Below, in pieces: positions 8,883-37,706 of a stretch of DNA of 37,852 nucleotides (positions are counted from its first letter, which is position 1; the number at the start of each line of letters is the position of its first letter). A model generated the notes under the pieces. It saw nothing but the letters and a program-made list of their open reading frames with translations, did not search any database and had not been told where the DNA came from. Position numbers and translations under genes: made by a program. Source of the DNA: Comamonadaceae bacterium (GTDB taxonomy: Bacteria; Pseudomonadota; Gammaproteobacteria; Burkholderiales; Burkholderiaceae_C); assembly GCA_947455935.1 (NCBI GenBank), contig CANGPV010000011.1, positions 1 through 37,852 of the forward strand. Direction: 5' to 3'.

Positions 8883-8908
8883 GGTTGTGCTGCGTTATTT
8901 GCGCAACC
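8883..8908 (+). terminator. Possible terminator hairpin after rfaD
   Basis: GGTTGTGC at 8883-8890 pairs with GCGCAACC at 8901-8908 (eight pairs, one G-U) around a ten-base loop, just after the rfaD stop. A pyrimidine-rich stretch CCCTTTTCTTTT follows about nine bases later rather than immediately, so termination is possible but not certain. Confidence 0.35.
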
Positions 8909-8967
8909 GCGCGTCATCCCTTTTCTTTTGTGCCAAGGTTTAATTGCTTTTTCCGAGGAGAAAGCGA

Positions 8968-9258: not shown

Positions 9259-9306
9259 GCCTTGCCCTGCCTTAAGCTCTGCGCCTTGCCCCTTTGCACC
9301 CCACAC

Positions 9307-16289: not shown

Positions 16290-18025
16290 CATTGGCTGAG
16301 CTGATCCACACCGGCTGGCGTGGTACGTCGCTGACGCCTTTGAACGAGGTGGACATGGCTTTGGCCCATGCCCTGAACCAACAGCAAGCCAGCGCGGATG
16401 TGCGCCACCTGTGGTTAGTGGCCTTGGTCAGTCACCAATGGGGGCGCGGTCATGCTTGCCTTGACCTTCAGGCATGGCCAACGACGGCCCACGACCTGCT
16501 GGGCTGGAATGACGCAGCTTTGGCGGCCATCCCTGCTGACCTTCGTGAAGCCATAGCCAGCTTGCCTTGGGCTAAGGGCGAAGGCTCGCCCTTGGTGGTG
16601 ACTGGCGAACGTGTGTATTTGCGCCGTGCTTGGCTGGCGGAGCAGCGCATTCGACAGCAGCTGATGGCCTTGCAACAGGTCCGCCAACCGCCACAGGATG
16701 TAGCGCAACAGTTGCAGCGCTTGTTTGGCAACAACCCCGATGACCAGCAACGTCTGGCTTGCGCACATGCTGCAGCGAATGCCTTGACACTCATCACCGG
16801 TGGCCCCGGCACAGGCAAAACCACCACGGTGGTCAAACTGTTGCGCCTCTTGCAAGCGGGCAGCGCCACACCTTTGCGCACCCTGCTGGCAGCACCCACG
16901 GGCAAAGCCGCCGCCCGTTTGATGCAAACCATGGCTCAGGCCCGCACCCAACTCAGCCCCGACGAAGCCGCTTGTCTGCCCACCCGCGCCCACACTTTGC
17001 ACAAACTGCTGTTTGCACCCCATGGCGGTTCTGTCCGATTGCAAGCTGATGTCATCGTTGTGGATGAAGCCTCCATGATCGATGTGGAACTGATGGCCAA
17101 GCTGCTGCTGGCCGTACCTGCCCAGTCGCGCTTGGTGTTGCTGGGCGACAAAGACCAACTCGCCTCGGTGGAAGCCGGTGCCGTCATGGCGCAACTGTGC
17201 CAAGCGCCTTGGTTACAAAGCCACACCATCGCATTGACGCACAGCCACCGTTTTGATCCCCAGCAAGGCATAGGCGCATGGGCGCGTGCTTGCCTGCAGG
17301 GCGACCGCTCAAACTTGCAACAGCTTTGGCACGATGCGCCTGTGGGATTAGGTGTCTCTCCTGATGGCGTGAGCAAACTCACGGCGCTGCACAGCCATTC
17401 ACCGCCCACCTTGCAAGCCATCGCCCAAGCGTGGTCGCCTTGGCAAGCCTTGCTAGCACCCCATCAACAAGGCGTGACCTGTGACGATGCGCAAGCTCTG
17501 GCTCTGCTCAACAGCTTTGCCCGCGTGGGCGTCTTGTGTGCCTTGCGTGAAGGGCCTTGGGGTGTCAAGCAGATCAACACCCAGCTGCAACAAGCGCTGG
17601 GCTTTGCCAACACCGACTGGTTTGTGGGTCGCCCTGTCATGGCCCGCCGCAACGACTATGCCTTAGGCCTGATGAACGGCGATATGGGCATGTGTTTGCC
17701 CACGTGGGTGGACGGTCAAGTGCGGTTGCGTGTGGCGTTTCCCGATGGCCAAGGCGGTGTGCGTTGGCTGGTCACCAGCCGCTTAGAGGACGTAGACACG
17801 GTGTTTGCCATGACAGTCCACCAGTCGCAAGGCTCGGAGTTCGAGCAGGTGCTGCTGATCTTGCCTGACCTTGCCACCCCAGTGCTCAGCCGTGAGTTGG
17901 TCTACACCGGCATCACCCGCGCTCGACAACAGTTGTGCGTATGGGCACCCCAGCCCGCTTTGCTGATGAGCGCCATCCAAGCCCAGCTGCTGCGCAGCGG
18001 TGGCTTGGCCGATGACCTCCCCTAG
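16286..18025 (+). CDS. recD: Exodeoxyribonuclease V subunit alpha
   Basis: RecD is the 5'-3' helicase of RecBCD. The 579-residue protein has Walker A LITGGPGTGKTTTV near residue 169, motif II VVDEASMIDVELM, LVLLGDKDQLASVEAGAV as motif III and VHQSQGSEFEQV plus YTGITRARQQL as motifs V and VI. The ATG at 16286 overlaps the recB stop; an in-frame start at 16238 would lie inside recB. Length is close to E. coli RecD (608). Together with recC and recB this is a complete RecBCD operon, in the order C-B-D without the intervening ptrA seen in E. coli. Confidence 0.95.
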   Translation: MTLAELIHTGWRGTSLTPLNEVDMALAHALNQQQASADVRHLWLVALVSHQWGRGHACLDLQAWPTTAHDLLGWNDAALAAIPADLREAIASLPWAKGEGSPLVVTGERVYLRRAWLAEQRIRQQLMALQQVRQPPQDVAQQLQRLFGNNPDDQQRLACAHAAANALTLITGGPGTGKTTTVVKLLRLLQAGSATPLRTLLAAPTGKAAARLMQTMAQARTQLSPDEAACLPTRAHTLHKLLFAPHGGSVRLQADVIVVDEASMIDVELMAKLLLAVPAQSRLVLLGDKDQLASVEAGAVMAQLCQAPWLQSHTIALTHSHRFDPQQGIGAWARACLQGDRSNLQQLWHDAPVGLGVSPDGVSKLTALHSHSPPTLQAIAQAWSPWQALLAPHQQGVTCDDAQALALLNSFARVGVLCALREGPWGVKQINTQLQQALGFANTDWFVGRPVMARRNDYALGLMNGDMGMCLPTWVDGQVRLRVAFPDGQGGVRWLVTSRLEDVDTVFAMTVHQSQGSEFEQVLLILPDLATPVLSRELVYTGITRARQQLCVWAPQPALLMSAIQAQLLRSGGLADDLP

Positions 18026-23732: not shown

Positions 23733-23762
23733 TTGGAACTGTCATGCGTTGGCCCTTATATT
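23733..23762 (+). promoter_or_regulatory. Candidate sigma-70 promoter of the TPR operon
   Basis: TTGGAA at 23733-23738 and TATATT at 23757-23762 are separated by 18 bases and match the -35 and -10 consensus in four and five of six positions. The predicted start of transcription is about 38 bases before the ATG at 23807, and the region upstream is AT-rich for about 100 bases. It is the only clear promoter candidate before nine co-directional genes. Confidence 0.55.
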
Positions 23763-23806: not shown

Positions 23807-26371
23807 ATGAAGTTAGTACGTACAACCCTGGTTGCCGCACTGTTGGCAGTTGGTTCCATCAGTTTCGCTGCAGAACCTACCCCCTACGAGAAAACTGCCA
23901 TTGTGAAAGACGCTTGGAGTGCTTACTTCAAGGGTGACTACGAAGGCGCTTTGAAAGCCTTTGACGCTAAAGCGGCTGACGCCAAATCCAAAAAGAACGC
24001 TGCTGCTGCCGATGGCCGTGGCTGGACTTTGCTGGCGCTGGGTAAGACCTCTGAAGCGCGTAACGCCTTCAAAGAGGCTTTGGCCATCGATCCTAATTTC
24101 TCTTACTCCTACAGCGGTTTGTACTACGCAGAAGGCCAATTGTTGGTGCCTTACCAAAAAGCCTGGGGCTTGGTGAATTTGGGCCGCTTTGACGAAGCCA
24201 CCAGCTATTTCAATGATGCCAAAAAAATGGCGCCTGAAGATCTGCATTGGTTGATCGACGATGGTTTTGGCTGGATGGCCTATTACAAAGGCGATACTGC
24301 AGGCGCCGAGAAGATTTTCAAAGATGTGGTTGCCAAAAACCCCAAGGCTTATTTGTCTTTAACAGGCTTGGGCACAGTTGCCATGAAGAAAAAGGACTAC
24401 GCAGCCGCTGCCTCTAACCTGAGCCAATCCTTCAAACTCAACCCTTACCAAGCACTGGCCTCTTACCTGTCCAACGCTGACGCCTTGATCAACGCCGGTC
24501 AATTCAAAGAAGCCAAAGAGATGTTGTTGATGGGCGAATACGCCTACCCCTACTCTGCTGACCTGTACTACCTGATTGCCCGCGCCAGCGATGGCTTGAA
24601 AGACGAAAAAATCGCTCTCTCCAGCTTGAGCTATGCCGCCAGCTTGGCACCTTTCTACATCGACCCCGTGTTTGACAAGATCAAACTGACAGGCAAAGCC
24701 AAGCAAACTGCTTTGTTGTCCATGGGTTGGTCCTTGTACTACGGCGGCTCTGCCGCAGCAGCTATCAAGCGTTTTGACCAATACGCCCAAGCCGGTGGTA
24801 CCGAGGTCAGTGGCTATTTGGGTACCGGTTGGTCACAACTGGCCCTGAAAAAATACCCCGAAGCCATCAAAGCTTTTGAAGAAGCCAACAAGGCGGGCGA
24901 TAACGCTGACGCGTTGGCAGGCTTGGGTTGGGTGGCTTACGCCAAAAACGACTTGGCAGGCGCTGAGAAATTCTTCAACGCCTCCATCAAAAAAGTACCT
25001 TTCTATGCCTCAGCCACTTCGGGTTTGGCCACCCTCCAGTACGGCAAAACCGCTTTGGTCAAAGCTGGCTGGGAAGCCTATTTCAAGGGTGACTTGAAAG
25101 GCGCTTTGGCGGCTTTCAAAGCCAAAGAAGCGGATGCAGCCTCTGCCAACAACCCCGCCGCTTTGGACGGCATGGGCTGGACGCAGTTAGCCATGGGTGA
25201 ACCCAAAGCAGCCAACGCTTCCTTCGCAGCCGCTTTGAAAATTGACGCTAACTACTACTCGTCACAAAGCGGTGTGATTGCTGCCAAGCGTGCCGACTTG
25301 GTGATCTACAACACCGCATGGGCCAAGCTCGAAGCCGGTCAGTTTGACGAAGCCAAGGCCAAGTTTGAGCAAGCCCGAGGCGAGATGCCTGCTGATATCA
25401 AATGGTTGATCGAGGACGGCCTAGCATGGATGGCCTTCTACAAGAAAGACTATGCAGGTGCACAAAAAGCGTTTGCCGCTATTGTTGCCGCCAACCCTAA
25501 AGCCTATTTGTCACACAAAGGCTTGGGCTATGCGCTGACCGAACTCAAGCAATACGAAGCTGCCAGCAAATCACTGGTGACCGCTTACAACTTGGCACCT
25601 TACCAAGGCGTGGCCGCTTTCACCGCCCCCACAGTGAAGATGATCGATGCCGGCGCGTTTGTGGATGCGCGCGAAGTTTTGAAACTCGGCGAGTTGATTT
25701 ACCCCTACTCGGCTGACATTCAGTTCTTGTTGGCCCGCGCCTACAACGGTTTGAACAACCAAGCCGACGCAGACAAGAAAGCCTTGGCTGCCGTGTCTTT
25801 GGCTCCTGCCTACATTGATCCTGTGTTGGGCAAGCTAAAAATCTCTGCCAACATGATGCCCATCGTGCTCTCAACTTTGGGCTGGGGCAACTACTATGTG
25901 GGTAATTTTGAAAACGCCATCAAGCGTTTTGAAGAGTCCAACAAAGCGGGCTCCAAAGACCCCAACAACGGCCGCGGTATGGGCTTCACCTACTACCGCA
26001 TGGGCAAATACAAAGAAGCTGTGCCTTACCTCGAAGCGGCCATGGCGCTGGAACCCAAAACCTTGTTGCCCATTGGTCGTAACAAACCTGTTCCCGGCTA
26101 TCCCTATTCCTACTGGTATGTCGAGTACACCGCAGGCTCGATCTTGGGCTGGGTGAACTACCGCATGGGTAACGGCGAAAAAGCTGAAAAACTGTTTGCT
26201 GCTGAAGTCAGCCGTAATCCTTTCAGTTTGGACGCATTGACAGGCTTGGGCTACGCCAAAACCTTGCAAAAGGACAAAGCCGGTGCTACAAAGTACTTTC
26301 AAGAAGCTTTGAAAGTGAACTACACCTATGGTGACGCTTTGTTCGGTCTGGAAGAGTTGAAGAAGCTTTGA
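23807..26371 (+). CDS. Exported tetratricopeptide-repeat protein with internal duplication
   Basis: The 854-residue protein has a signal peptide (about residues 1-21, ending SISFA) and then TPR-like helical pairs to the end, so it is probably periplasmic or outer-surface. No other domain is seen. Residues 29-413 and 414 onward are two copies of the same array: both open with KTA(I/L)VK and a YFKGD turn, and both later contain a W-L-I-(D/E)-D-G segment, a NPKAYLS turn and YPYSAD. Copy two runs into an extra C-terminal part with VPGYPYSYWYVEYTAG. Shine-Dalgarno GAGGA is at 23796-23800. Codon choice resembles strongly expressed genes. Its stop overlaps the PqqD-like start. It may be a scaffold for the operon; the ligand is unknown. 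Confidence 0.85.
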   Translation: MKLVRTTLVAALLAVGSISFAAEPTPYEKTAIVKDAWSAYFKGDYEGALKAFDAKAADAKSKKNAAAADGRGWTLLALGKTSEARNAFKEALAIDPNFSYSYSGLYYAEGQLLVPYQKAWGLVNLGRFDEATSYFNDAKKMAPEDLHWLIDDGFGWMAYYKGDTAGAEKIFKDVVAKNPKAYLSLTGLGTVAMKKKDYAAAASNLSQSFKLNPYQALASYLSNADALINAGQFKEAKEMLLMGEYAYPYSADLYYLIARASDGLKDEKIALSSLSYAASLAPFYIDPVFDKIKLTGKAKQTALLSMGWSLYYGGSAAAAIKRFDQYAQAGGTEVSGYLGTGWSQLALKKYPEAIKAFEEANKAGDNADALAGLGWVAYAKNDLAGAEKFFNASIKKVPFYASATSGLATLQYGKTALVKAGWEAYFKGDLKGALAAFKAKEADAASANNPAALDGMGWTQLAMGEPKAANASFAAALKIDANYYSSQSGVIAAKRADLVIYNTAWAKLEAGQFDEAKAKFEQARGEMPADIKWLIEDGLAWMAFYKKDYAGAQKAFAAIVAANPKAYLSHKGLGYALTELKQYEAASKSLVTAYNLAPYQGVAAFTAPTVKMIDAGAFVDAREVLKLGELIYPYSADIQFLLARAYNGLNNQADADKKALAAVSLAPAYIDPVLGKLKISANMMPIVLSTLGWGNYYVGNFENAIKRFEESNKAGSKDPNNGRGMGFTYYRMGKYKEAVPYLEAAMALEPKTLLPIGRNKPVPGYPYSYWYVEYTAGSILGWVNYRMGNGEKAEKLFAAEVSRNPFSLDALTGLGYAKTLQKDKAGATKYFQEALKVNYTYGDALFGLEELKKL
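23891..26059 (+). repeat. Diverged two-copy internal duplication in the TPR gene
   Basis: Bases 23891-25045 and about 25046-26059 encode two homologous blocks of roughly 385 and 340 residues in the same order of motifs (KTA-VK, YFKGD, W-L-I-D/E-D-G, NPKAYLS, YPYSAD, AIKRF-E). DNA identity has decayed, so the duplication is old and not an assembly artefact. Confidence 0.75.
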
Positions 26372-26646
26372 AACCAGCCGTCAGCCTAAAACTGCGCAGC
26401 CGCATCAACCTGGAGCCTGATACCGAAGGCGAATGCGGCATGCTGTTTGATACCCAGACCGCGGTAATTTGCGCTTGCAACTCATCCGGCTGGGTGCTGG
26501 TCGAGGCGATGAAAAAGGGCTCGGATGTGGCCCGATTGACCGACCTCTTGACCCATCAATTTGATATCGACGAAGACATTGCACGCAAAGACGTTTTGTC
26601 CTTGGTGAAAGAACTGCGAACGCTGGACATGCTAGAGGCTAAATGA
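26368..26646 (+). CDS. PqqD family protein (peptide-recognition / RRE-like)
   Basis: The 92-residue product has the length and pattern of PqqD: a beta-rich start (SRINLEPDTEGECGMLFDTQTAVICACNSSG has the usual G-x-x-L-x-N-x-(T/S)-(G/A) strand-turn run), then the helix-rich winged part with VLVEAMKKG, LTDLLTHQFDI and DVLSLVKELRTLDMLE. PqqD chaperones the PqqA precursor peptide, and the same fold serves as the RiPP recognition element of many peptide-modifying systems. No pqqA, pqqC or pqqE lies nearby, so pyrroloquinoline quinone synthesis is unlikely. The start is TTG, overlapping the TPR stop (TTGA); the stop overlaps the ATP-grasp start (ATGA). Confidence 0.8.
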   Translation: MKPAVSLKLRSRINLEPDTEGECGMLFDTQTAVICACNSSGWVLVEAMKKGSDVARLTDLLTHQFDIDEDIARKDVLSLVKELRTLDMLEAK

Positions 26647-28817
26647 AATCGAAACCACTTAGGGTGGCGTTGACAGGTTGGGGTGGTTTGGATAATCCGG
26701 AGCCGGGTCTGGCAGTGGCAAGAGCCTTGCGAGACCAATGGAATGGCCCCTTGGAGATTCTGGGACTGGTCTATGACACATGGACCACCGGCGCTTGGAC
26801 CCCAGGCGTTGCCAACTCTGTCCATATCATCCCCCCCATCGCCAATGGCGACTACGCGGCGCTCATGCGCATTTTGCACATTCACAAAGAGCATCCGATC
26901 GATGTGCTTTTGCCCTGCCTCGACTTGGAAGTGCCGGTTTACGCCCGCTTGGCCAAGCGTTTGCTGCGCGAAGGTATTCGTACCCTGTTGCCCGACCCCG
27001 ACGACAGTTTCAAAATCACCAAGCCTCAGCTGTATTGGTTTTGTTACTCCAACCAGATCGTCACCCCCAAAACCACCCATGTGGTCGACATTGCCTCTGT
27101 GGCTTTGCATGCTGATTTGTTTGGCTATCCCCTATGGGTCAAAGGCACAGTAGCCGGCGCCAAACGGGTCTATAACGCGGGTCAAGCGGCCTACGAAGCC
27201 AGCTTGTTGGCCGCCAAATGGGGTGGCGGCGTGCTGCTTCAAGAAGCCATTGAAGGCTCCGAGCATGTGGTGTCTATGGTGGCTCGTGAAGATGGCTCGT
27301 GTTTGGCCATGACCATGATGCGCAAGATCGGTTTGAACGCCCGCGGCAAAGGCATGGTGGGTTCAGTGGTTGAAGACCCCAGTTTGCGCAAACTGGCTTT
27401 GCATATCTTGTCCAAGCTGAACTGGCGTGGCCCCTTGGAACTTGAATTTGTGCGTTCGCAAAGCAATGGACAGTTTTATTTGCTTGAGGTGAACTGCCGC
27501 TTTCCTTCATGGATTTACCTCACCGCCTTGGCTGGTGCCAACCAGCCCATGGCCTTGGTGAAAGAAATCTTAGACCCCGGTAGCCGCGCCCCCAAGCAAG
27601 CGCAAATTGGCGCCATGTATGCACGTGACGTGCAAGAGATGGTGGTTCCTGCCGCCGCCATTGTGAAATTGGCACGTACCGGATCGGCCGATGTACCCGC
27701 CCCTGCGGTCATCAAATCTAAACGCGGCGATGTGTCGGTGGCGGTCACAGGTATTTCTGCTTTGGAATTAACCCAACCTGGCTTGGGTGTGGGTCGCAGC
27801 TTACGCTCGGCCCCCGAGGTGGCACAGGTGATTGGTTTGGGCTATGCCTCCACCGACACGGGTTTGTTTCGCAAAGAAATTTTCGATGTATGTGCCCGCA
27901 TGCCCATCGACGAGAGCGAAGATCAACCCGAGCGCTGCGACGAAGCCACCTTGAACCGCTTGCTGGCCATTCAAAAAGCACATGGTTTGGACATGGTGAT
28001 TCCCAATTTGGATGTGGAAATCGCCCGTTACCAACGCCTGTCGGGTGAGTTGCGTTCGCACGGCATACATACTTTGCTGCCCACGCCTCAAGCCACTGAC
28101 AAGCTGAGCAAACAAGGCCTGATCAAATTGGCACAACGCAGCGGCGAAGTCGATTTCGATTTCCCGCCCACGGTGGTGGTGAGCAGCAAAAAAGATTTGC
28201 AAGCCGCGTGGAAACGTTTTGGTTCGCCCATGATGATCAAGGGCTTGGATTCCTTGGCCACCAAGGTGTTCAGCTTGGAACAAGCCGAGTTGGCTTTTTC
28301 TCGCTACAAAGAATTTGGCGAGAACAAAATCATTGTGCAAGCCGTGGTGTTTGGCGAGGAGTTCAGCATCGCCGTGGTGTGTGACCGACAAAGCCAGATG
28401 TTTGATGCGGTGCCCTTGAAGAAAACCGTCATGTGCGAACGCGGTAAAACCTGGTCGGGCATCAAAGTGGATATGCCCGATGTGATGCAACGCTTGGCCA
28501 GTTTGCTTAAAAAAGTGGGTTGGCAAGGACCGGCGGATGTGGAATTGATCCGCGACATCACCACCGACCGCATGATCTTGATTGAGGTCAATCCTCGACT
28601 GCCTGCATGGATTGGCTACGGCCAATTGGTAGGCGTCAATTTGCCGCGTCAACTCATGCTCAAAGCCTTGGGACGAGAAGCCCTTTCGACTCCCCAAGCT
28701 GCCGCTTTAGACCAAGATCTGGTATTTTTACGTACCGCCCAAGAAATTTCTGCCAGCGCCAGCGCCATGGCCATGTTTATCAACCGAGGTGAGATTCGTC
28801 ATGCTAGTAGCCGTTAA
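26643..28817 (+). CDS. Protein with two tandem ATP-grasp domains
   Basis: The 724-residue protein is a duplicated carbamoyl-phosphate-synthase-like ATP-grasp ligase. Copy one spans about residues 5-362 and copy two 363-724; both begin with a V-A-(L/V)-T-G strand and PGLxVxRxLR. Each copy has the nucleotide-binding Lys strand (YPLWVKG and SPMMIKG) and the metal-binding E-x-N-x-R motif: Glu282/Asn284/Arg286 and Glu648/Asn650/Arg652, 366 residues apart. Both sites therefore look competent. ATP-grasp enzymes join a carboxylate to an amine or thiol through an acyl phosphate. The order PqqD-ATP-grasp-decarboxylase suggests peptide or carrier-bound amino acid work; substrate unknown. It overlaps the next gene by 17 bases. 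Confidence 0.85.
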   Translation: MKSKPLRVALTGWGGLDNPEPGLAVARALRDQWNGPLEILGLVYDTWTTGAWTPGVANSVHIIPPIANGDYAALMRILHIHKEHPIDVLLPCLDLEVPVYARLAKRLLREGIRTLLPDPDDSFKITKPQLYWFCYSNQIVTPKTTHVVDIASVALHADLFGYPLWVKGTVAGAKRVYNAGQAAYEASLLAAKWGGGVLLQEAIEGSEHVVSMVAREDGSCLAMTMMRKIGLNARGKGMVGSVVEDPSLRKLALHILSKLNWRGPLELEFVRSQSNGQFYLLEVNCRFPSWIYLTALAGANQPMALVKEILDPGSRAPKQAQIGAMYARDVQEMVVPAAAIVKLARTGSADVPAPAVIKSKRGDVSVAVTGISALELTQPGLGVGRSLRSAPEVAQVIGLGYASTDTGLFRKEIFDVCARMPIDESEDQPERCDEATLNRLLAIQKAHGLDMVIPNLDVEIARYQRLSGELRSHGIHTLLPTPQATDKLSKQGLIKLAQRSGEVDFDFPPTVVVSSKKDLQAAWKRFGSPMMIKGLDSLATKVFSLEQAELAFSRYKEFGENKIIVQAVVFGEEFSIAVVCDRQSQMFDAVPLKKTVMCERGKTWSGIKVDMPDVMQRLASLLKKVGWQGPADVELIRDITTDRMILIEVNPRLPAWIGYGQLVGVNLPRQLMLKALGREALSTPQAAALDQDLVFLRTAQEISASASAMAMFINRGEIRHASSR

Positions 28818-30198
28818 AAAGAAATATGAAACCCCTCGCTTGGAGCAGTTGGCTACCCAGCAAGGCATGCAAAAACACCGCGTGCATGAAATCAAATCGG
28901 AGGACGGTGAATTTGACGAGATGGGGGACGTCAACGAACTCTTGGCTGAGTTTGGTTCACCGCTGTACATCGTCTCTGAAAAAGCGGTGCGCACCCTGTA
29001 CCGCTCGTTTCGTGATGCGTTCACGGCCCCCGGCATAGACACCATCATTGGTTACTCTTACAAAACCAACTACCTGCCTGCTGTGTGCGCCATCTTCCAA
29101 CAAGAAGGCGCATGGGCGGAGGTGGTCTCTGGCATGGAATACGACTTGGCCCGTTCACTCAATGTGCCCGGCCACCAAATCATCTTCAACGGTCCCTATA
29201 AAAAACCCGATGAAATCATCCGCGCTATCAGCGAAGGGGCTTTGATCAACGTCGACAGCTTTGATGAGCTGGACGCCGTGGTCAAAATTGCCAAACAACT
29301 GAAGAAAACTGCACGCATTGGTCTGCGTATCAACTTCCAGCATGGCGAACAGTCGTGGACCAAATTTGGTTTCAACCACGACAACGGCGATGCGGTTGAA
29401 GCGCTCAAGCGGGTGAAAAAAGCAGGCAGTTGCGTGAGTTTGGAAGCCTTGCACAACCACTCAGGCACTTACCAAGTCAACCCTGATATTTACGCGCGTA
29501 CCGCGCAGGTCCTCACGGCTGTGGCCAAGAAAGTCATTGAACTGGGTTTGCCAGCGGTGCGTATCGCTGACTTTGGCGGTGGCTATCCCTCCAGTAACCG
29601 ACTCAAGCCCGCTTTCGAATCGTTGGAGCTGGGTGGCGGTGCGGGTCGTCACTTGCAACCGTTTGCCGACGCCATCATCGGCGGCCTGACCAAAGCGGGC
29701 AAAGCCTTTGGCGAGCGTCCTACCTTGGTGCTAGAACCCGGTCGCGCAGTGATTGATTCCGCCATGAAAATGGCCTGTACCGTGGTGTCACGCAAATCCA
29801 TTCCCGGTCGTGGTGATGCCGTCATCGTTGACGCAGGTGTGAACCTCTTGCCCACAGCCTATTGGTATGACCATGGTGTGGAAGCGTCTTCATTTGACGA
29901 TGAAGCTGCTGTGATGGGTTCGCAACCCGTGTCGGTGTTCGGCCCTTTGTGTATGCAAATTGATGTGCTGCGTGAACGTGCCATGTTGCCCCCCATGTCT
30001 TTGGGCTCTTCTTTGGTGGTCTCCAATGTGGGCGCTTATTGCTTGACCCAATCCATGCAATTCATTCAACCCCGCCCTGCGGTGGTGTTGCTGGGCAAAA
30101 ACGGGGCTGAAGTTATCCGTCGTCGTGAAACACGCGAAGATATTTTTGCGCTCGACTCGGTGCCCAAGCACTTGAAGAACAAAGCTCCCAAGGCTTAA
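28801..30198 (+). CDS. Type III PLP-dependent decarboxylase (LysA/ornithine-decarboxylase fold)
   Basis: The 465-residue enzyme has the alanine-racemase-like barrel and C-terminal beta domain of diaminopimelate/ornithine/arginine decarboxylases. PLP Lys88 is in GYSYKTNYLP; HNHSGTY stands for the HxGS motif, FGGGYP and Glu312-Pro-Gly-Arg bind phosphate, and Gly-Pro-Leu-Cys384 with a later Asp matches the catalytic Cys loop contributed by the second subunit. It is probably a decarboxylase of an unknown basic amino acid; it is not called lysA because that gene usually lacks this context. Residues 1-45 form an extra N-terminal extension with Y9ETPRLEQL. The ATG at 28801 was chosen for GAGGTGAG seven bases upstream; GTG at 28789 is the alternative. 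Confidence 0.85.
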   Translation: MLVAVKKKYETPRLEQLATQQGMQKHRVHEIKSEDGEFDEMGDVNELLAEFGSPLYIVSEKAVRTLYRSFRDAFTAPGIDTIIGYSYKTNYLPAVCAIFQQEGAWAEVVSGMEYDLARSLNVPGHQIIFNGPYKKPDEIIRAISEGALINVDSFDELDAVVKIAKQLKKTARIGLRINFQHGEQSWTKFGFNHDNGDAVEALKRVKKAGSCVSLEALHNHSGTYQVNPDIYARTAQVLTAVAKKVIELGLPAVRIADFGGGYPSSNRLKPAFESLELGGGAGRHLQPFADAIIGGLTKAGKAFGERPTLVLEPGRAVIDSAMKMACTVVSRKSIPGRGDAVIVDAGVNLLPTAYWYDHGVEASSFDDEAAVMGSQPVSVFGPLCMQIDVLRERAMLPPMSLGSSLVVSNVGAYCLTQSMQFIQPRPAVVLLGKNGAEVIRRRETREDIFALDSVPKHLKNKAPKA

Positions 30199-30204
30199 TT
30201 TTTT

Positions 30205-31833
30205 ATGCTGGCGGACACCCCAACGCCTTGGCAAACCTACGCTAAAGCTTGGCTCAGTGCCCAAGCCCAGGTGGTGTTTCTCAGCACCCCTTTGCAAGGT
30301 TTTTTATTTCTGCTGAGCTTGTCCTTGTTCTCCCCGTGGAGCGCGGTGGGCATGGCGCTGGGCGCATTGATGGCACTGTTCATCTGTGCCTTTGTGCTGC
30401 GCCAACACCCCTTGGAATGGGTCAACGGCTTTAACCTGTTTGACGGCGCAGTCATCGGTTTGCTGTGGGCGGGCTTGCTATCGCGCGACATGGAATCTTC
30501 ACTGTTGTTAGCCATCGCCATTGCCGGTTGCTATGCCATGCGCTTCAAGTTGGTGAGCGCTGCTTACAGCCAAGGTTTCCCTTCGCTGGGTGTAGCCTCG
30601 TTGTTCACCCTGTGGGTGGCCATTTATGTGGTCACTTATTTCGGTGGTGACTTTTGGTCTATGCGCTTGCGCACCGAACCCGGTGCCTTGTCCCTCAGTT
30701 TGGCGGGTTTGAGTTTGCTGGGTGCCATGTTGTTGCACGATGTCAAAGCGGCTGTATTTGCCCTGATAGGTTCGTGCTTGGCAGCTTGTGTCTTCTTTTA
30801 TGTTCAAGACTACCCACCTTCTATGGGTAGCACGGTGGTGCTGGGTTTCACCCTCTTTCTGGTCTTGTTTTCGCTGCCTGGCACCTTGCTGCCTGGGCAT
30901 GCCAAGGCCTATCCCTTGGCCGTGTTGTCGGGTGTGGTGACTTTGGGCTTAGAACTGGCTTGGCCACATTTGAATGGTTTCGCCTCCATTCCCTCGCTCA
31001 TGGCACCCATGTTCATCGGCATATGGATGGCATTTGCGCTGATGTCACGCGAACATCGCTTGATCTTTCTGGACCCGGGCGTGCAAGCCTTGGCCAAGCA
31101 GTTGAAAGCAGCATCGCATAACGGGGGCACCGTGGTGTTGACGGGTGCAGGCATCAGCACGGCCTCTGGCATACCTGACTACACACGTGGCGATTGGTTG
31201 GAAGCCGGTGTGCCTTTGGCTACTTATAACTTCGCCGGTTTTGTCCACAACCGCTATTCCCGCTTGATGTACTGGAATTCGTGTTTTCGTTTTTTTAAAA
31301 CTGCTTCGCAAGCTCGTCCCAATCCTGCTCACACCACCTTGACGGCATTGCAACACGCGGGATTTGTCAGCACGGTGATCACACAAAATGTCGATGGATT
31401 ACACCAACACGCTGGCACGCAACACACTGTCGAGCTTCACGGCACGATTGACCACGTACATTGCCTGCTATGCGGAGCATCACAAGCATGGCCTGAACCT
31501 GCGCGCTGGCAACATGCTGATGCCATGTGCGAATGCGGTGGTTTTCTCAAGCCTGCGGTGATTGCCTTTGGAGAAGACATTTCATTGGCTACTTGGCAAC
31601 AAGCGCAACAAGCGGTCAGCACCTGCAGCCTGATGCTGGTGATTGGCACCCAAGTGGCTGTCACATCGGCCTTGGCCTTGATTGAGCAAGCTCGCCAGCG
31701 GCAAGTGCCCTGCTTTTTCATCATGCCCGGCTACCCCGCATGTGTATTGACCGTCCATGACCGTGTGCTGTTTTACAAGGCCGAGACCTTGTTGCCCGCG
31801 TTGGCGGCTTATATGGGATTACCCCTGGTTTGA
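30205..31833 (+). CDS. Urea-transporter-like membrane domain fused to a Sir2 sirtuin
   Basis: One 542-residue frame. Residues 1 to about 290 are very hydrophobic, with roughly ten membrane spans in two halves; GFLFLLSLSLFSPW, NGFNLFDGAVIGL and a FPSLGVASLFTLW turn recall the UT/SLC14 urea-transporter fold, though this family call is moderate. Residues about 300-542 are an intact class of NAD-dependent sirtuin: GAGISTASGIPDY at 314, ITQNVDGLHQHAG at 392, catalytic His412 in ELHG and zinc cysteines 420, 423, 442 and 444. By hydropathy the sirtuin probably faces the cytosol, but this is not certain. Sirtuins remove acyl groups from lysines, or ADP-ribosylate. It starts six bases after the decarboxylase stop with a weak shine-Dalgarno. 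Confidence 0.85.
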   Translation: MLADTPTPWQTYAKAWLSAQAQVVFLSTPLQGFLFLLSLSLFSPWSAVGMALGALMALFICAFVLRQHPLEWVNGFNLFDGAVIGLLWAGLLSRDMESSLLLAIAIAGCYAMRFKLVSAAYSQGFPSLGVASLFTLWVAIYVVTYFGGDFWSMRLRTEPGALSLSLAGLSLLGAMLLHDVKAAVFALIGSCLAACVFFYVQDYPPSMGSTVVLGFTLFLVLFSLPGTLLPGHAKAYPLAVLSGVVTLGLELAWPHLNGFASIPSLMAPMFIGIWMAFALMSREHRLIFLDPGVQALAKQLKAASHNGGTVVLTGAGISTASGIPDYTRGDWLEAGVPLATYNFAGFVHNRYSRLMYWNSCFRFFKTASQARPNPAHTTLTALQHAGFVSTVITQNVDGLHQHAGTQHTVELHGTIDHVHCLLCGASQAWPEPARWQHADAMCECGGFLKPAVIAFGEDISLATWQQAQQAVSTCSLMLVIGTQVAVTSALALIEQARQRQVPCFFIMPGYPACVLTVHDRVLFYKAETLLPALAAYMGLPLV

Positions 31834-31835
31834 AG

Positions 31836-32621
31836 ATGCGCCGAATAGCCTGCCATCTGTGCTGGTTGTTGCTGTCATTTGCTTGCTCTTGTGTTTATGC
31901 GCATCTGTTGTCTGCAGGTATAGGTGCCATTAATTTGCAAAAAGACAGTGCCTATGTGATTTTGGCTATTCCGCTTAATGACCTACCCGTATTTGTGCCG
32001 CCCAAGTCTGGCCCCATCAAAATAGAGACGATTCAAGCTCAGCGTGCCGAGTTATTGAGACAACTGCGTCTTAGCGTGACGCTTACTGCAGGCAAAAACA
32101 CAGGACGACTGGTGTTTGAAGATCTCGTGGTGTCAACACACAAACATCACTCCAATGAATCGATTGAACAAATTGAGTGGGTTGCGCGTTACCAGTGGGA
32201 TGAGCCGCCTTCACCCGATGCCGCTTTGGTAATTTCTCTGAATTTCTTGCATCACCTACATAGCCAACATTCAGCCTACAACCTGGTCTTGACAGACGGC
32301 GCACAAAAAACACATGCACGCTTGGACGCCGAGCATCCCGTTCATGTATTTGTCAGAGGCAAAGCAACTGAAGGCGAGACGCAAGCTATAGAAAAATACA
32401 TAGACATACCTCCCAGCCCTGTGTCAATTCCATGGCTAACCCTATTACATTCCTTGCTTTTAACCCTAGCGACAAGTGTTGTGGCATGGAGCTGCATTTC
32501 CTGCTACTTTGCACCAACGCCTTGGCTGTCCTGGCGCAAGCAACTGGTTGCGCTAGCATGTCTTTTCATCGTGTTTGCACAAACAGGCATTCCGCTTATC
32601 TCATTGAATGTTCAGAGGTGA
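31836..32621 (+). CDS. Exported, membrane-anchored protein, HupE/UreJ-like ectodomain
   Basis: The 261-residue protein has a signal peptide (residues 1-22, ending SCVYA) whose mature part begins HLLSAG, a beta-rich periplasmic domain of about 175 residues, and two C-terminal membrane segments (about 195-215 and 230-250). The A-H-L-L-S start and strand pattern resemble the ectodomain of HupE/UreJ_2 proteins, but the usual multi-span bundle is missing, so it may be a truncated relative; the family call is weak. A TTG at 31830 overlapping the previous stop is the alternative start. The gene looks more AT-rich than its neighbours, which could mean later acquisition. Function unknown. Confidence 0.6.
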   Translation: MRRIACHLCWLLLSFACSCVYAHLLSAGIGAINLQKDSAYVILAIPLNDLPVFVPPKSGPIKIETIQAQRAELLRQLRLSVTLTAGKNTGRLVFEDLVVSTHKHHSNESIEQIEWVARYQWDEPPSPDAALVISLNFLHHLHSQHSAYNLVLTDGAQKTHARLDAEHPVHVFVRGKATEGETQAIEKYIDIPPSPVSIPWLTLLHSLLLTLATSVVAWSCISCYFAPTPWLSWRKQLVALACLFIVFAQTGIPLISLNVQR

Positions 32622-32624
32622 TCT

Positions 32625-33740
32625 ATGTCCAACCACACCCTTAAACCCTCGCTAGCTCCGCACCATCGCTTCATCTGGTTTATGTTGCTATGCCTAGCAC
32701 TATGGTCTAGCCTGTTGATAGCACGCAAAGTTACAGCCCAAGCCTCCGGGGCAAACGCTTTGGTCAATACCGCCGCAGTTGATTGCAACGTACAGAGTGA
32801 ACAAACCAGTCCCAGTTTGCCGGGTCTGCCGAGCAAGGTCAAAATGCTTTGTGACAAGCAAGAACGCACCCTGCAAGCCAATGGCATCCCTGACCACTTG
32901 GTAGGTCGCTTTCCTAACGCGGGCAACCCCAACCGCATATCTGAGCAAAGCGTGCGCTTTTCTATGCCTTTGACGCCCAAGCTCCATAACCCTAAGGGGT
33001 TGAAGGTGCACGTGCCAGGTTTTGCACGCAATGGCGTGATGTTAGAACCCGAAACAGCCGAAGTCTTTAACTGGGCCAACGATGGCTGGCGTTATGAAGC
33101 GATTCAGACTGTTTATAACTTGGGCTTAGACATGAACTTAGCCCATGTCCAACCGCAAGGTGCTTACCACTATCACGGGATTCCAGACGAATATCTCAAC
33201 GCCCTCAATAAGGGTGAGGCCATGACGTTGGTGGCGTGGGCGTCGGATGGATTTCCCATCTATGCAAGGTACGGCTATCAAGATCCTATGGATGCGAACA
33301 GCGGCATCAAAAGTGTTAAACCCAAGTACCGTTTAAAAACGCCTGCAGAACTTTCTGCCACGGTGGTCAATGGTCAGCCTCGGCCAGGCTTCACGGATGG
33401 CGAATTGCGTCGTCGAACGCAGGTGCTGAGTCTGCCGCAAGGTGTTTTCGTTCAAGATTGGGTTTTTGACATGAACCTTGTCGGCGATCTTGATGAATGC
33501 AACGGTCGCTTTGGCGTCACACCTGAATTCCCTAAAGGGATCTACCACTACTACCTCACCGATGATTACCCTTATATGCAACGCTGCATCAAAGGCGATG
33601 GTAAGGATGCACGACCCATTCCAACAGGTGCTATGCGGGGCGGACCTGGTGGTCCTGGTGGTCCTGGTGGTCCTCCAGGCCCAGGGGGACCTGGCGGACC
33701 TGGCGGACCTGGCAGACCACCGCCTAGAGATCAGTTCTGA
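32625..33740 (+). CDS. YHYH-domain protein with collagen-like tail
   Basis: The 371-residue product has an N-terminal signal/anchor (about residues 15-37), then a YHYH domain: GAYHYHGIP at 179-187 and a second GIYHYYLTDDYPY near 305-317, with conserved single cysteines (CDKQE, DLDECNG, MQRC) that may form disulphides in the periplasm. YHYH domains are found in secreted bacterial proteins and their biochemical role is not known; the histidines suggest metal binding. The last 30 or so residues are a Gly-Gly-Pro repeat. Shine-Dalgarno AGAGGTGA overlaps the previous stop three bases before the ATG, so it is coupled to the anchored protein upstream. Confidence 0.82.
   Translation: MSNHTLKPSLAPHHRFIWFMLLCLALWSSLLIARKVTAQASGANALVNTAAVDCNVQSEQTSPSLPGLPSKVKMLCDKQERTLQANGIPDHLVGRFPNAGNPNRISEQSVRFSMPLTPKLHNPKGLKVHVPGFARNGVMLEPETAEVFNWANDGWRYEAIQTVYNLGLDMNLAHVQPQGAYHYHGIPDEYLNALNKGEAMTLVAWASDGFPIYARYGYQDPMDANSGIKSVKPKYRLKTPAELSATVVNGQPRPGFTDGELRRRTQVLSLPQGVFVQDWVFDMNLVGDLDECNGRFGVTPEFPKGIYHYYLTDDYPYMQRCIKGDGKDARPIPTGAMRGGPGGPGGPGGPPGPGGPGGPGGPGRPPPRDQF
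33637..33717 (+). repeat. Tandem 9-base GGA/GGT-CCT repeat coding Gly-Gly-Pro
   Basis: Near-identical nonamers of the type GGTGGTCCT and GGCGGACCT repeat about eight times in frame, giving a Gly-Gly-Pro/Gly-Pro tail to the YHYH protein. Two synonymous versions alternate in blocks, as expected from repeat expansion by slippage. Copy number may vary between strains. Confidence 0.8.
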
Positions 33741-33745
33741 GCTCG

Positions 33746-34585
33746 ATGCCTATGACCTCTGTCCATGATTTGCAAGCCGCTGCTGAGGTCATACAAGCCG
33801 CTGATGGGCTGTTGATCACTGCAGGGGCTGGTATGGGTGTGGACTCCGGTCTGCCCGACTTTCGCGGCAGCGATGGATTTTGGAAAGCCTACCCAGCGCT
33901 CAAAGACAGCGGTCTGCAATTTCAAGACATGGCGAACCCCCAAGCTTTTGAACGTGACGCCAGACAAGCGTGGGGGTTTTATGGCCACCGCCTTTCGCTC
34001 TACCGCGATACACATCCTCATGCAGGATTTCATGTGCTCAAGCGCTGGTCGGACGCCAAGCCCCAGGGAGGTTTTGTATTCACCAGCAATGTGGATGGTC
34101 AGTTCCAACGTGCAGGCTTTGCCTCGAAGCAGGTTTATGAATGCCACGGCAGTATCCACCGCTTGCAGTGCACCACCCCTTGTCAACCCAGCACATGGTC
34201 TGCTGATGCCTTGCAACCCGACATCGATATCCAACGTTGTCGTTGGCTGAATGACCTGCCTGGGTGTCCTGACTGCCATGCGCTGGCCAGACCCAACATC
34301 TTGATGTTTGCCGACTGGAATTGGGTGGATAGCCATCGCCATCACAACGACAGCGCATTGGAAGTTTTTTTAGCTGCGTGTAGGCAGATGGTGGTGATTG
34401 AACTGGGTGCAGGCACCGAGGTGGCCACAGTGCGACATTTTTCCGAGCGTATAGCCCGCGACTACCAAGCGCCTTTGGTACGTATCAATCCCAGAGAAGC
34501 GCATAGCGACGTAGGCGACAGCTTCAGCATTGCCATGGGCGCACAAGAGGCTTTGCATGCGATGGATGAACTTCTTCACTCTTAA
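33746..34585 (+). CDS. Sir2-family NAD-dependent protein, second type
   Basis: The 279-residue sirtuin differs from the fused one. Its cofactor loop is GAGMGVDSGLPDFRG near residue 27, the N-D pair sits in FTSNVDGQFQRAG (Ser in place of the usual Gln), the catalytic His134 is in ECHGS, and cysteine pairs CTTPC and CPDC could bind zinc. ARPNILMFADWNW is typical of a widespread uncharacterised bacterial group, which may be deacylases or ADP-ribosyl transferases. The ATG at 33746 lies five bases after the YHYH stop; ATG 33752 is a possible alternative. Two dissimilar sirtuins in one operon is unusual. Confidence 0.88.
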   Translation: MPMTSVHDLQAAAEVIQAADGLLITAGAGMGVDSGLPDFRGSDGFWKAYPALKDSGLQFQDMANPQAFERDARQAWGFYGHRLSLYRDTHPHAGFHVLKRWSDAKPQGGFVFTSNVDGQFQRAGFASKQVYECHGSIHRLQCTTPCQPSTWSADALQPDIDIQRCRWLNDLPGCPDCHALARPNILMFADWNWVDSHRHHNDSALEVFLAACRQMVVIELGAGTEVATVRHFSERIARDYQAPLVRINPREAHSDVGDSFSIAMGAQEALHAMDELLHS

Positions 34586-34597
34586 GGCTTGAACGAT

Positions 34598-35653
34598 ATG
34601 AAGCACCTTGAACTCTTGCCACCCGAGGGATCGTTACGAGCCATGGACAACGATTTCTATGGCATGGTGGGCGGTGGTGCGCGCTTGCGCTTGCTGGAGG
34701 TATTCATCGATTTGCAAATTCCTGAACTCTTGGGTTACCGCGGCCCATTGCCAGCCCAACAAATTTGCGCCTTGTTGGGCTTGAACCTGCACCGTGGTTG
34801 GAAGTTTTTGCATTTACTGGCTTTATCAGGCTTGCTGGAGGAAAGCAACGGTGTGTACAGCGGCGATGAAACCTTGTTTGGTCTGTCGGCTAACGCAACT
34901 TACTATTTCGGCCCTACAGGTACCGAAGGTTTTTTCTACCGCGATTTGGTGGCATTTTGGAAAAAAGTCGCCAACTTGTCACTGATCGATGTGCTGCGTG
35001 GCGCACCCGTTCCAGAGGGTATTCATTGGCCTTATGCCACCCCCGATTCGGTTGCCCATTTCGAGTATTACTGGATGCGCTTAACCGCTGCAGGCAGCAT
35101 TGATACCCTGTTGCAATCGCAAGCAGTGGTGAATGCGCACCAGTTGCTTGATATTGGCGGGGGAGACGGCACTGTGGGCTGCGCTTTGTGCAGTGCATAC
35201 CCAGATTTACAAGTGACGGTATTCAACTTACCTGTATCGGCTGAATTAGCCCGAACACATATTGCAGAACGACACATGATTGACCGAGTGCAGGTACACG
35301 AAGGCGATTTTTTCAAAGATGAATTTCCTACGGGCTTTGACCATGTGCTGTTTAACCGTACCTTGGCCGACTGGCAACCGACTGTTTGCAAAATGCTGTT
35401 TGACAAAGTTCGACGCTCTATGGCGCCTGGAGGAAAGTTGGTCATCAACGAAGCCATGTTGGAAGGCAACACCGACTTCACCCTCGCTTGGGAGTTTCGC
35501 TATATCTTTTATGACGCGTATGGAAGAGCGCTTTTTAAGCCCTTATCTGTCTACAAGCAATTATTAGAAGATGCAGGCTTTCGCATCACCAAAGTCACCC
35601 CTATGCGTCACGAGGCTTTTTACTCCGTGATTGAAGCAGAGGCTGTGCATTAA
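34598..35653 (+). CDS. SAM-dependent O-methyltransferase (Methyltransf_2 type)
   Basis: The 351-residue protein has the plant/HIOMT-like layout: an N-terminal winged-helix dimerisation domain (ARLRLLEVFIDLQIPELL) and a C-terminal Rossmann methyltransferase with the SAM loop LLDIGGGDGT near residue 184, VTVFNLP as the acidic strand region and a HEGDFF segment. The family usually methylates hydroxyl groups of small aromatic or polyketide-like molecules; a His general base is not obvious here, the NRTLADW loop replacing the usual LH-x-W-x-D. It is the last gene of the operon, 12 bases after the sirtuin. The ATG at 34598 is preferred over the TTG at 34589. Stop overlaps that of the opposite gene. 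Confidence 0.85.
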   Translation: MKHLELLPPEGSLRAMDNDFYGMVGGGARLRLLEVFIDLQIPELLGYRGPLPAQQICALLGLNLHRGWKFLHLLALSGLLEESNGVYSGDETLFGLSANATYYFGPTGTEGFFYRDLVAFWKKVANLSLIDVLRGAPVPEGIHWPYATPDSVAHFEYYWMRLTAAGSIDTLLQSQAVVNAHQLLDIGGGDGTVGCALCSAYPDLQVTVFNLPVSAELARTHIAERHMIDRVQVHEGDFFKDEFPTGFDHVLFNRTLADWQPTVCKMLFDKVRRSMAPGGKLVINEAMLEGNTDFTLAWEFRYIFYDAYGRALFKPLSVYKQLLEDAGFRITKVTPMRHEAFYSVIEAEAVH

Positions 35654-36453
35654 GCCACCATCAAGGCATCGTCAAATATCGCTACCGCACGGGTCCATCC
35701 CGCTGAAGCACCACGTATCTTGTGGGGAAAACAGCTGATGTAAAACCCGCTGGCGGGCAGTACTTCTAAGTTGTGCAATTTCTCTAAGTGGCAATAGCCA
35801 ATATCTCGACCCGCCTTATGGCCTTCCCATATCAGCGAGGCATTGCCTGTCTCGGCGTATTTTTGCGCAGTGTGTACAAACGGCGCATCCCAACTCCAAG
35901 CGTCGGTACCGGTTAAGCGCACACCCCGCTCGAGCAAATACATGGTTGCCTCGTAGCCCATGCCGCAACCTGTCGCCACGTAATCGGGTTGACCGTAACG
36001 CTTACCCGCGGCAGTGTTGACCACCACAATTTCCAGAGGACTGAGTGTGTGCTGAATCCGTTGAAGCTCGGCTTCTACTTCCTTGGCCGTCACCACATGG
36101 CCATTGGGCAAATGACGAAAGTCAAGCTTGACACCGGGCTGGAAGCACCACTCCAAGGGCACCTCGTCAATGGTGATGGCAGGTTGGGCTTCTCCGCTGG
36201 CCTTGTCCATGGTGGAGTGGTAGTGGTAAGGCGCATCCAAGTGCGTACCGTTGTGGGTACACAGTTTGACGAACTCCACCGCCCATCCCTCACCATCGGG
36301 CAGGTCTTCTTTTTTCAAGCCGGGAAAAAACGGCTCGATTTGTGACACCGTGTTTTGGTGTGTGAGGTATTCAATCTGCGGCGCATACGCAGGAGGGTCG
36401 CTGACCACATCGTTTTCAAGGTAAATGGAGATATCAACAAAACGACGTGGCAT
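35650..36453 (-). CDS. Cyclase family protein (kynurenine formamidase-like metal hydrolase)
   Basis: The 267-residue protein belongs to the PF04199 cyclase/KynB superfamily, Mn/Zn-dependent hydrolases of amides or lactones. The diagnostic metal site HNGTHLDAPYHYH is at about residue 67, and later GTDAWSWD and CFPHKI fit the family. KynB itself is shorter (about 210 residues), so another substrate, such as an isatin-like lactam or a catabolic cyclic amide, is likely. AAGGGG is six bases before the ATG. It follows the thiolase across 31 bases and so is probably in its transcript, hinting at a breakdown pathway. Confidence 0.85.
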   Translation of the reverse strand: MPRRFVDISIYLENDVVSDPPAYAPQIEYLTHQNTVSQIEPFFPGLKKEDLPDGEGWAVEFVKLCTHNGTHLDAPYHYHSTMDKASGEAQPAITIDEVPLEWCFQPGVKLDFRHLPNGHVVTAKEVEAELQRIQHTLSPLEIVVVNTAAGKRYGQPDYVATGCGMGYEATMYLLERGVRLTGTDAWSWDAPFVHTAQKYAETGNASLIWEGHKAGRDIGYCHLEKLHNLEVLPASGFYISCFPHKIRGASAGWTRAVAIFDDALMVA

Positions 36454-36484
36454 GGCAAACCCCTTTATTCAAATGTTGGCGACT

Positions 36485-37669
36485 TCAAGCAACCTCAAAC
36501 AAACCTGCCGCACCCATGCCGCCGCCTACACACATGGTCACGACCACATATTTGACGCCACGGCGTTTGCCTTCAATCAAAGCGTGACCTACCAAACGTG
36601 CGCCCGTCATGCCATAGGGATGACCGATGGAGATGCTGCCACCGTTGACGTTGTAGATGTCGGGGTTGATACCCAATTGATCGCGGCAGTAAATGGCTTG
36701 GCAGGCAAACGCTTCGTTCAATTCCCACAAACCAATATCGTCAATCTTCAAACCATGCTGCTTGAGCAATTTGGGCACGGCGTAAATGGGACCTATGCCC
36801 ATTTCTTCGGGGGCACAACCGGCCACAGTCATGCCGCGGTAAATACCCAAAGCTTGCAAGCCACGGCGTTGTGCCAAACCCGCATCCATCACCACGCAAG
36901 CACTGGCGCCATCGGACAACTGGCTGGCGTTGCCAGCAGTGACCACGCCCCCTTCAATGACGGGCTTGAGCGAAGTCAAACCTTCCAGCACTGTGTCAGG
37001 ACGGTTGCTCTCGTCTTTGTTCAGCACCACGTCTTTGTAACTGATGACGCCGGTGGCTTTGTCGGCCACGGCCATCTGGGTTGAAAATGACACAATCTCT
37101 TGGTCAAACCGACCCGCTTGTTGTGCTGCCGCTGTGCGCTGTTGCGACTGCAAGGCATACAGGTCTTGTGCTTCACGGCTGATGCTGTACTTGCGAGAAA
37201 CAAACTCAGCGGTTTGCAGCATGGGCATGTACACATGGGGAACGCGTTGTTCAAGTGCTGCGTCTTTTCCTGCCATGGCGCTTTCGAAATAGGCCTTTTG
37301 CTCAGCGGTGATGTTTTCTTGACCACCGGCCACCACCACCTGCATGCCATCGACCATCACTTGTTTGGCAGCCGTGGCAATCGCCATCAAACCGGACGCA
37401 CATTGGCGGTCCATGGTTTGACCTGGCGCCGTCACCGGCAAGCCTGCAGCCAAAGCGGCGTTTCTTGCCAAATTCATGCCTGCCGTACCGGAGGTGAGCA
37501 CGGTGCCCATGACCACGTCTTCCACTTCCGAGCCTTCAATGCCAGCACGTTGCACAGCTTGGGCAATGACGTGGCCCAACAGACTGGGCGACTTGGTGTG
37601 GTTCAAAGAGCCTTTGAAGGCTCGGCCAATGCCGGTGCGGGCGGTAGACACGATGACAGCTTCTCTCAT
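36485..37669 (-). CDS. Acetyl-CoA C-acyltransferase (thiolase)
   Basis: Thiolases cleave 3-ketoacyl-CoA with CoA or condense two acyl-CoA units. The 394-residue protein has nucleophile Cys90 in [17 protein letters not shown], the catalytic His in [10 protein letters not shown] and the second Cys in [13 protein letters not shown], so all catalytic parts are present. Length is standard (390-400). ATG at 37669 starts [12 protein letters not shown] as in the family; the TTG at 37687 adds six residues without a good ribosome site. Whether it is biosynthetic (phaA/atoB) or beta-oxidative (fadA-like) cannot be told. It lies 37 bases after livG. Confidence 0.93.
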
Positions 37670-37706
37670 GGGTAGGTATCCGATCAAAAAATAAAAAAAA
37701 GAAGAA

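Follow-up and report, generated by a model that had tools for sequence, protein, structure and literature searches.

Genetic organization of the locus

The DNA analysed here (hereafter the window) is a stretch of 37,852 nucleotides from a Comamonadaceae bacterium, positions 1 to 37,852 of contig CANGPV010000011.1 in assembly GCA_947455935.1. Between positions 23807 and 35653 of its + strand it carries nine same-strand open reading frames (ORFs), among them genes for a PqqD-like protein, a tandem ATP-grasp ligase, a pyridoxal phosphate (PLP) decarboxylase and a protein in which a urea-transporter (UT) domain is fused to a Sir2 domain. This operon is one variant of a cassette that occurs in bacteria of many phyla.

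An earlier note on this DNA had described nine same-strand genes with no gap above about 12 bases, the first four of them overlapping. Both points were confirmed, the intergenic distances being -4, -4, -29, +6, -4, +3, +5 and +3 bases (largest gap, 6); the overlap of the decarboxylase gene with the ATP-grasp gene is 17 bases if translation starts at the in-frame ATG at 28801 rather than at the GTG at 28789. The family names given in the note also agreed with Pfam and NCBIfam, in which eight of the nine proteins matched, in gene order, TPR, PqqD, tandem ATP-grasp, Orn/DAP/Arg decarboxylase, Sir2, YHYH, Sir2 and Methyltransf_2; for the product of 31830-32621, neither Pfam nor NCBIfam gave a family match. 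The description "two sirtuins" has to be corrected, since the first of these is a full UT domain fused to Sir2 and not just a sirtuin. The single promoter candidate that had been put forward is present as TTGGAA-18-TATATT at 23733-23762 (a 9/12 match), but promoter-like sites are no commoner here than in shuffled sequence (5 found vs. a mean of 7.9). The features of the locus are as follows.

23807-26371, + strand: TPR protein, internally duplicated (halves 43% identical), with a signal-peptide-like N-terminus by eye
26368-26646, + strand: PqqD-like recognition element of ribosomally synthesized and post-translationally modified peptides (RiPP recognition element, RRE), most similar to the B1 proteins of lasso-peptide systems
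26643-28817, + strand: tandem ATP-grasp ligase, conserved K, E, E, N and R retained in both halves
28789-30198, + strand: PLP (alanine-racemase-fold) decarboxylase, start possibly the ATG at 28801
28825-28842, + strand: leader-like recognition motif YETPRL, of the form [YFW]xxPx[ILVMF], in the N-terminal tail of the decarboxylase
28873-28875, + strand: tail lysine K29, nearly invariant (column kept in 83/87), in a low-confidence stretch of the structural model
29950-29955, + strand: Cys388, the catalytic residue by homology, with Met389 next to it as in FigC
30205-31104, + strand: UT domain, full length (PF03253 and profile)
31114-31809, + strand: Sir2 deacylase domain fused to the UT domain; an M23 peptidase domain stands at this place in most relatives
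31830-32621, + strand: hypothetical protein, non-core, missing in three congeners
32625-33740, + strand: YHYH protein with a Gly/Pro-rich C-terminus, non-core, missing in three congeners
33746-34585, + strand: second Sir2 protein, retained in three congeners
34589-35653, + strand: O-methyltransferase (Methyltransf_2), retained in three congeners and also adjoining the cassette in loci L016 and L088

A four-gene core is conserved across distant bacteria

Relatives of the decarboxylase were confirmed at least 565 times in GTDB species genomes, and the best 80 of these were analysed, so that all cassette rates given below apply to loci whose decarboxylases are closest to that of the window. One of the loci, L035, is from the cultured environmental species Pedobacter paludis. 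The 87 rows of the decarboxylase alignment are these 80 together with the window, L006-L008 and L097-L099, of which the window, L097, L098 and L099 belong to one genus. The core genes are arranged in the order PqqD, ATP-grasp, PLP decarboxylase and UT fusion, and the 87 rows bear 17 phylum labels, although many of the loci are metagenome-assembled genomes (MAGs) and single labels are possibly wrong. Among the 70 loci with more than 3.2 kb of upstream DNA, profiles detected PqqD in 69 and ATP-grasp in all 70. Downstream, UT was found in 70 of the 71 loci with more than 2.6 kb of DNA, an M23 domain in 58 and a Sir2 domain in 12, the two partners never together; in 69 of the 71 the UT domain is fused to its M23 or Sir2 partner. 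The association of these genes is far beyond chance, because the core recurs in the same order in distant bacteria. The earlier note had proposed checking whether homologues are usually apart, and the outcome was the opposite.

Variants of the core were also seen. L015, L017 and L019 contain two ATP-grasp genes each, L019 has UT and Sir2 as separate genes, and the sole Gemmatimonadota locus shows no UT before the contig end. Four of the 12 Sir2 loci come from one genus. The Sir2 loci together with L014, which has the tandem ligase and whose locus ends early, make up one side of a branch with a support of 100/96, and in this clade, which is that of the window, two ATP-grasp modules co-occur with Sir2. 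One Sir2 locus was scored as having one module and one M23 locus as having two. These exceptions are most likely L015, in which the second module was matched in two short pieces, and L063, an Accumulibacter record in which the ATP-grasp gene (8901-9957) was matched in two frames and may be broken.

At strict cut-offs, the ligase or the decarboxylase was found in 4 of 300 genomes of the order. The count was 11 of 274 genomes in the class and, for the ligase, 4 of 37 genomes in the genus, the window's genome being included each time. The methyltransferase occurred in one of 250 genomes of the order, the window's own. Three congeners have the arrangement TPR, PqqD, ATP-grasp, decarboxylase, UT::Sir2, Sir2 and methyltransferase, without the 31830 and YHYH genes; because these two are missing there, the nine genes are not the natural unit of the system. 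Thus, the earlier grouping of a peptide-recognition protein, an amide ligase and an amino-acid decarboxylase holds as a conserved unit, but its extension to all nine genes does not. The GC content at codon position 3 is 0.61-0.65 in the first five genes, 0.47 in the 31830 gene and 0.53 in the YHYH gene; it is lower in the last two genes as well (0.56 and 0.55).

Several further genes accompany the core. A TPR gene lies upstream in the Sir2-type loci that have upstream DNA, L012 being the exception. In 41 of the 57 loci with room for them, two ORFs follow UT::M23, the nearer of 280-550 residues and the farther of 195-260; among those scanned, the farther ORF showed TPR, as did some of the nearer ones, whose remaining part is beta-barrel-like by eye. 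A methyltransferase 38% identical to that of the window directly follows the decarboxylase in a Dehalococcoidia locus, and one that is 57% identical stands after UT::M23 in a Planctomycetota locus. At L088 (3165-6422), a single protein of 1085 residues comprises UT, M23 and TPR, and the methyltransferase behind it shares 57% identity with that of the window. Four loci have an NAD-synthase-like gene after UT::Sir2 (L006, 9053-9955; L009, 13024-13932; L010; L011), which fits an NAD-consuming Sir2 step; that of L009 matches PF02540. An AraC-type regulator is encoded upstream of the cassette in L082 (7805-8404) and in seven more Bacteroidota loci, the regulators forming one cluster. Pfam recognized the helix-turn-helix alone in these regulators, their heavy-metal-associated-like N-terminal part being a reading by eye. 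A metallophore reading was dropped, since these regulators of eight Bacteroidota loci and a Metal_resist protein upstream in L059 were too sparse.

The decarboxylase carries a conserved leader-like motif in an added N-terminal tail

The match to the NCBIfam LysA model begins at model position 12, which is residue 44 of the decarboxylase, and that to the FslC model at model position 18, which is residue 47; therefore, about 30 N-terminal residues are an addition. The stretch between the chosen start and the GSP motif, which marks the beginning of the fold, is 43-60 residues long (in the window, 51). The motif [YFW]xxPx[ILVMF] is present in this tail in 87/87 rows, and its Pro is invariant. As background, the motif occurred in 270 of 4350 tails after shuffling and in 48 of 815 further ORFs from these loci, the latter taken from a crude gene call with spurious frames included. 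The count uses starts with at least 40 codons before GSP and admits Phe at the last position. A first count with [ILVM] in that position had given 66/87, and 20 of its 21 misses arose from a Met inside or after the tail being taken as the start, the other being the Phe of L042; with the start rule kept, [ILVM] alone gives 86/87. When K/R was required before the motif and G/N/Q behind it, with ATG as the only start codon, 73/87 still matched. In canonical decarboxylases from 30 control loci, 5 of the 27 that could be parsed had the motif, four of these five at the GTP motif inside the domain.

The motif was also found in 11 of 11 further loci, from 10 genomes unused in motif discovery, with matches to PqqD, ATP-grasp, UT and M23 around the decarboxylase; here it is independent of start choice, and the tail of L130 is identical to that of L068. 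In an analysis of 64 rows, the tail Pro was among the invariant columns alongside the PLP-site residues. A Lys thirteen columns beyond the Pro is kept in 83/87, and in 69/87 the leader motif is followed in the same row by [NQG]K[FHY]. The conserved tail motif is a new observation. The predicted structure shows the tail as free of helix and nearly free of strand, with a predicted local distance difference test (pLDDT) score below 50 for most of residues 21-38, as expected for a docking peptide.

RREs normally bind the leaders of precursor peptides. The PqqD protein of the window matches PF05402 with 36.4 bits (cut-off, 23.4), and a profile of the cassette PqqD proteins was closest in the PDB to TfuB1 (8e-14) and TbiB1 (4e-13), the PqqD of pyrroloquinoline quinone synthesis being far weaker (4e-4). 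YxxP is the lasso leader recognition sequence (PMC12710340), and the YxxPxL ligand motif is shared by the cassette. We therefore consider it likely, judging from sequence, that PqqD docks on the decarboxylase tail.

Unlike in lasso systems, the motif is here on the enzyme and no precursor recurs. When linked ORFs with this motif were collected within 8 kb in 86 loci and the window, no recurrent small ORF was obtained; besides the decarboxylase there were 78 motif-bearing ORFs on both strands, which were scattered; several were internal frames or belonged to the ATP-grasp gene. By eye, no precursor peptide recurred upstream of PqqD in 19 loci. A dedicated precursor with this motif beside the cassette was rejected because the motif-bearing ORFs are scattered and do not recur. 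Neither a lasso cyclase (asparagine-synthetase-like) nor a B2 protease (transglutaminase-like) was present among the nine window proteins, the neighbours of relatives having been sampled. Gly/Pro-repeat, secreted-looking ORFs lie beside PqqD in L007 (9860-10559, - strand), and a Gly-rich EF-hand-like ORF lies upstream of PqqD in L060; no recurrence of either was seen.

Active-site residues of the decarboxylase and the ligase

Among solved structures, N-citrylornithine decarboxylase is nearest to the decarboxylase of the window (6e-51), and LysA is a homologue at 3e-43. The scores fall below the cut-offs of both the FslC model (NF041039, 204.7 bits vs. 500) and the LysA model (TIGR01048, 196.5 bits vs. 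297.9). The catalytic Cys is followed by Met in 87/87 decarboxylases. In FigC, which acts on an N-acylated substrate, the Asp next to the catalytic Cys is likewise replaced by Met, whereas in enzymes of the ornithine decarboxylase type this Asp holds the side-chain amine of the substrate (PMC7857480). Because Met stands next to Cys as in FigC, the enzyme is unlikely, by this analogy, to recognize its substrate through a free side-chain amine, and an amide-linked one is likely.

For the ligase, the closest matches are carbamoyl-phosphate-synthase-like ATP-grasp proteins (2pn1, 1e-20). In all ten tandem ligases, both halves keep the K, E, E, N and R that are invariant in 72 single-module proteins; in the first half of the window's ligase, these are K167, E268, E282, N284 and R286.

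A urea-transporter domain fused to an M23 or a Sir2 partner

The protein encoded at 30205-31833 consists of an N-terminal urea transporter (PF03253, E 2e-11, over the cut-off) fused to Sir2. A profile built from 31 UT fusions, six of the Sir2 type and 25 of the M23 type, matched solved urea transporters over 310 positions (dvUT, 8e-55). The assignment is based on sequence profiles; the predicted structure of the window's fusion has a mean pLDDT of 87, and with Foldseek only Sir2 chains were among the 50 matches listed. The full-length UT domain is shared with the urea transporters dvUT, UT-A and UT-B, from which the cassette differs by its fusion to M23 or Sir2. The Sir2 residues GAG, QNxD, the catalytic His and four Cys are kept in 6/6 aligned UT-Sir2 proteins, and the H, D, H and HxH columns of M23 are invariant in 25/25.

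An excess of Lys/Arg follows the last UT helix in both partner groups, with a similar overall distribution. The termini of UT-B are cytosolic. Given this charge excess and these termini, the M23 and Sir2 domains probably face the cytoplasm, in which NAD would be at hand for Sir2.

Proposed pathway and alternatives

We propose that the core carries out RRE-scaffolded assembly of a small molecule and uses no separate precursor of ribosomal origin. In this scheme, the PqqD-like RRE, encoded by a gene that overlaps the ATP-grasp gene, would bind the YxxPxL tail of the decarboxylase and so unite ligase and decarboxylase. The ligase would form an amide involving an amino acid via its side chain, and the decarboxylase would then strip the free alpha-carboxyl from the amide-linked amino acid. 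At the membrane, the amide would be cut by the urea-channel-fused hydrolase, M23 in most relatives and NAD-dependent Sir2 in the window's clade, and a small amine or amide would exit via the UT channel. The tandem ATP-grasp and Sir2 of the window's clade look as if a second acylation needs a further release enzyme, and the second Sir2 and the methyltransferase may tailor the product. Gene order and its conservation, the tail motif, the RRE type, the catalytic residues, the UT family and the mutual exclusivity of M23 and Sir2 are read directly from sequence; from them we infer the docking, the succession of chemical steps, the release and the export. For the whole route of ligation, decarboxylation, release by M23 or Sir2 and exit through UT, in outline, we would put the probability at roughly 0.45.

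A close parallel is the rhizoferrin pair FslA/FigA and FslC/FigC, in which a ligase forms an N-acyl diamino acid that is then acted on by an alanine-racemase-fold decarboxylase. Among solved or curated families, that of N-citrylornithine decarboxylase lies nearest, and the Met next to Cys is common to FigC and the cassette enzymes. However, the ligase there is an NRPS-independent siderophore synthetase and not an ATP-grasp enzyme, and the description of FigC, in the part of PMC7857480 available to us, mentions no RRE, tail motif or UT fusion.

A number of observations weigh against the proposed route. PqqD is missing in L022 and UT in L071, and most of the loci are MAGs. The tail lysine is missing in 4/87 rows and in L139 of the eleven further loci. 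In the UT domain of the window itself, the LPxLSLPF motif is degraded. The usual M23 His-Asp spacing is HxxxD; here it is wider, and we are unsure of the metal-site reading. With regard to topology, UT residues 98-122 differ between the partner groups (Lys+Arg, 3.0 vs. 0.6), and in L088 the TPR region lies behind M23 in the same protein while the stand-alone TPR partners begin in a signal-peptide-like manner, which would argue for a periplasmic C-terminus.

Among the alternatives, the one that survives best, although we hold it to be unlikely, is that modification takes place on the decarboxylase tail, the protein being a fusion of enzyme and precursor whose tail serves as both covalent carrier and docking site. 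The ATP-grasp enzyme would load an amino acid, for example on the tail Lys, decarboxylation would proceed in cis, and M23 or Sir2 would release the product at the urea-channel exit. The near-constant Lys column, its [NQG]K[FHY] context behind the leader motif and the low model confidence of the lysine stretch would suit such a carrier. So would the function of Sir2 enzymes, which take acyl groups off lysine, and a weak, below-cut-off match of the ligase to the PylC-like N-domain (E 9e-4), PylC being an enzyme that acylates a lysine. The rows and the further locus that lack the Lys speak against it, and we know of no carrier of this kind on a decarboxylase. In pearlins, amino acids are modified on a ribosomally made scaffold peptide, so that a small molecule is built while tethered to a ribosomal scaffold; the likeness ends there, in that no separate scaffold peptide recurs here and the ligase is an ATP-grasp enzyme.

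That the cassette belongs to an ordinary RiPP pathway, its precursor encoded elsewhere in the genome and the tail merely competing with or mimicking a leader, appears distinctly unlikely. The normal binding of leaders by RREs would favour it, and ATP-grasp enzymes do make RiPPs, the graspetides (PMC8939145). Yet the motif is in every decarboxylase row while no motif-bearing small ORF recurs beside the cassette, and the decarboxylase is of a small-molecule type. Salvage of cell-wall diaminopimelate, in which the LysA-like decarboxylase, the ligase and M23 would act on peptidoglycan fragments, is decidedly improbable: M23 domains often hydrolyse peptidoglycan and LysA is a clear homologue, but the FigC-like Met after the catalytic Cys is universal among the rows, Sir2 replaces M23 in one clade, and the UT charges suggest a cytoplasmic M23.

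A butirosin-like scheme, in which glutamate would be attached to an acyl carrier by the ligase and the decarboxylase would work on this carrier, is very improbable, since no acyl carrier domain was found by Pfam in the nine genes, as the earlier note had stated, and the small cassette protein is an RRE. The precedent cited in that note remains apt in part: the ATP-grasp ligase of butirosin is BtrJ, BtrK is a homologue of the window's decarboxylase (4e-24) but a more distant one than N-citrylornithine decarboxylase, and both systems combine ATP-grasp with a type III PLP decarboxylase. BtrK decarboxylates a tethered amino acid (PMC7857480).

Surroundings of the operon

RecC-, RecB- and RecD-like genes lie upstream at 9262-18025, and the chromosomal setting of the operon is ordinary; one query at E 1e-60 gave no plasmid match. 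Convergent with it, at 35650-37687 on the - strand, are genes for a putative cyclase (PF04199) and a thiolase-like protein, neither of which was found in the three congener stretches (one of 20 kb, two of 10-11 kb).

Implications

The earlier note knew of no described pathway with this combination of genes, and none appeared among the matches listed in searches of 5.39 million open PMC papers. The core is kept in order across distant bacteria and therefore must make something useful. Should the decarboxylase tail prove to be bound by the RRE, the presence of an RRE would no longer indicate a RiPP in every case, with consequences for genome mining that relies on RREs. If the tail should also be the carrier, a recognition element known from RiPP pathways would have been redirected to a leader that forms part of an enzyme, in a widespread biosynthetic system. 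The fusion of a urea-type channel to interchangeable amide-cutting enzymes would, if our reading of it is true, represent a new coupling of release and export.

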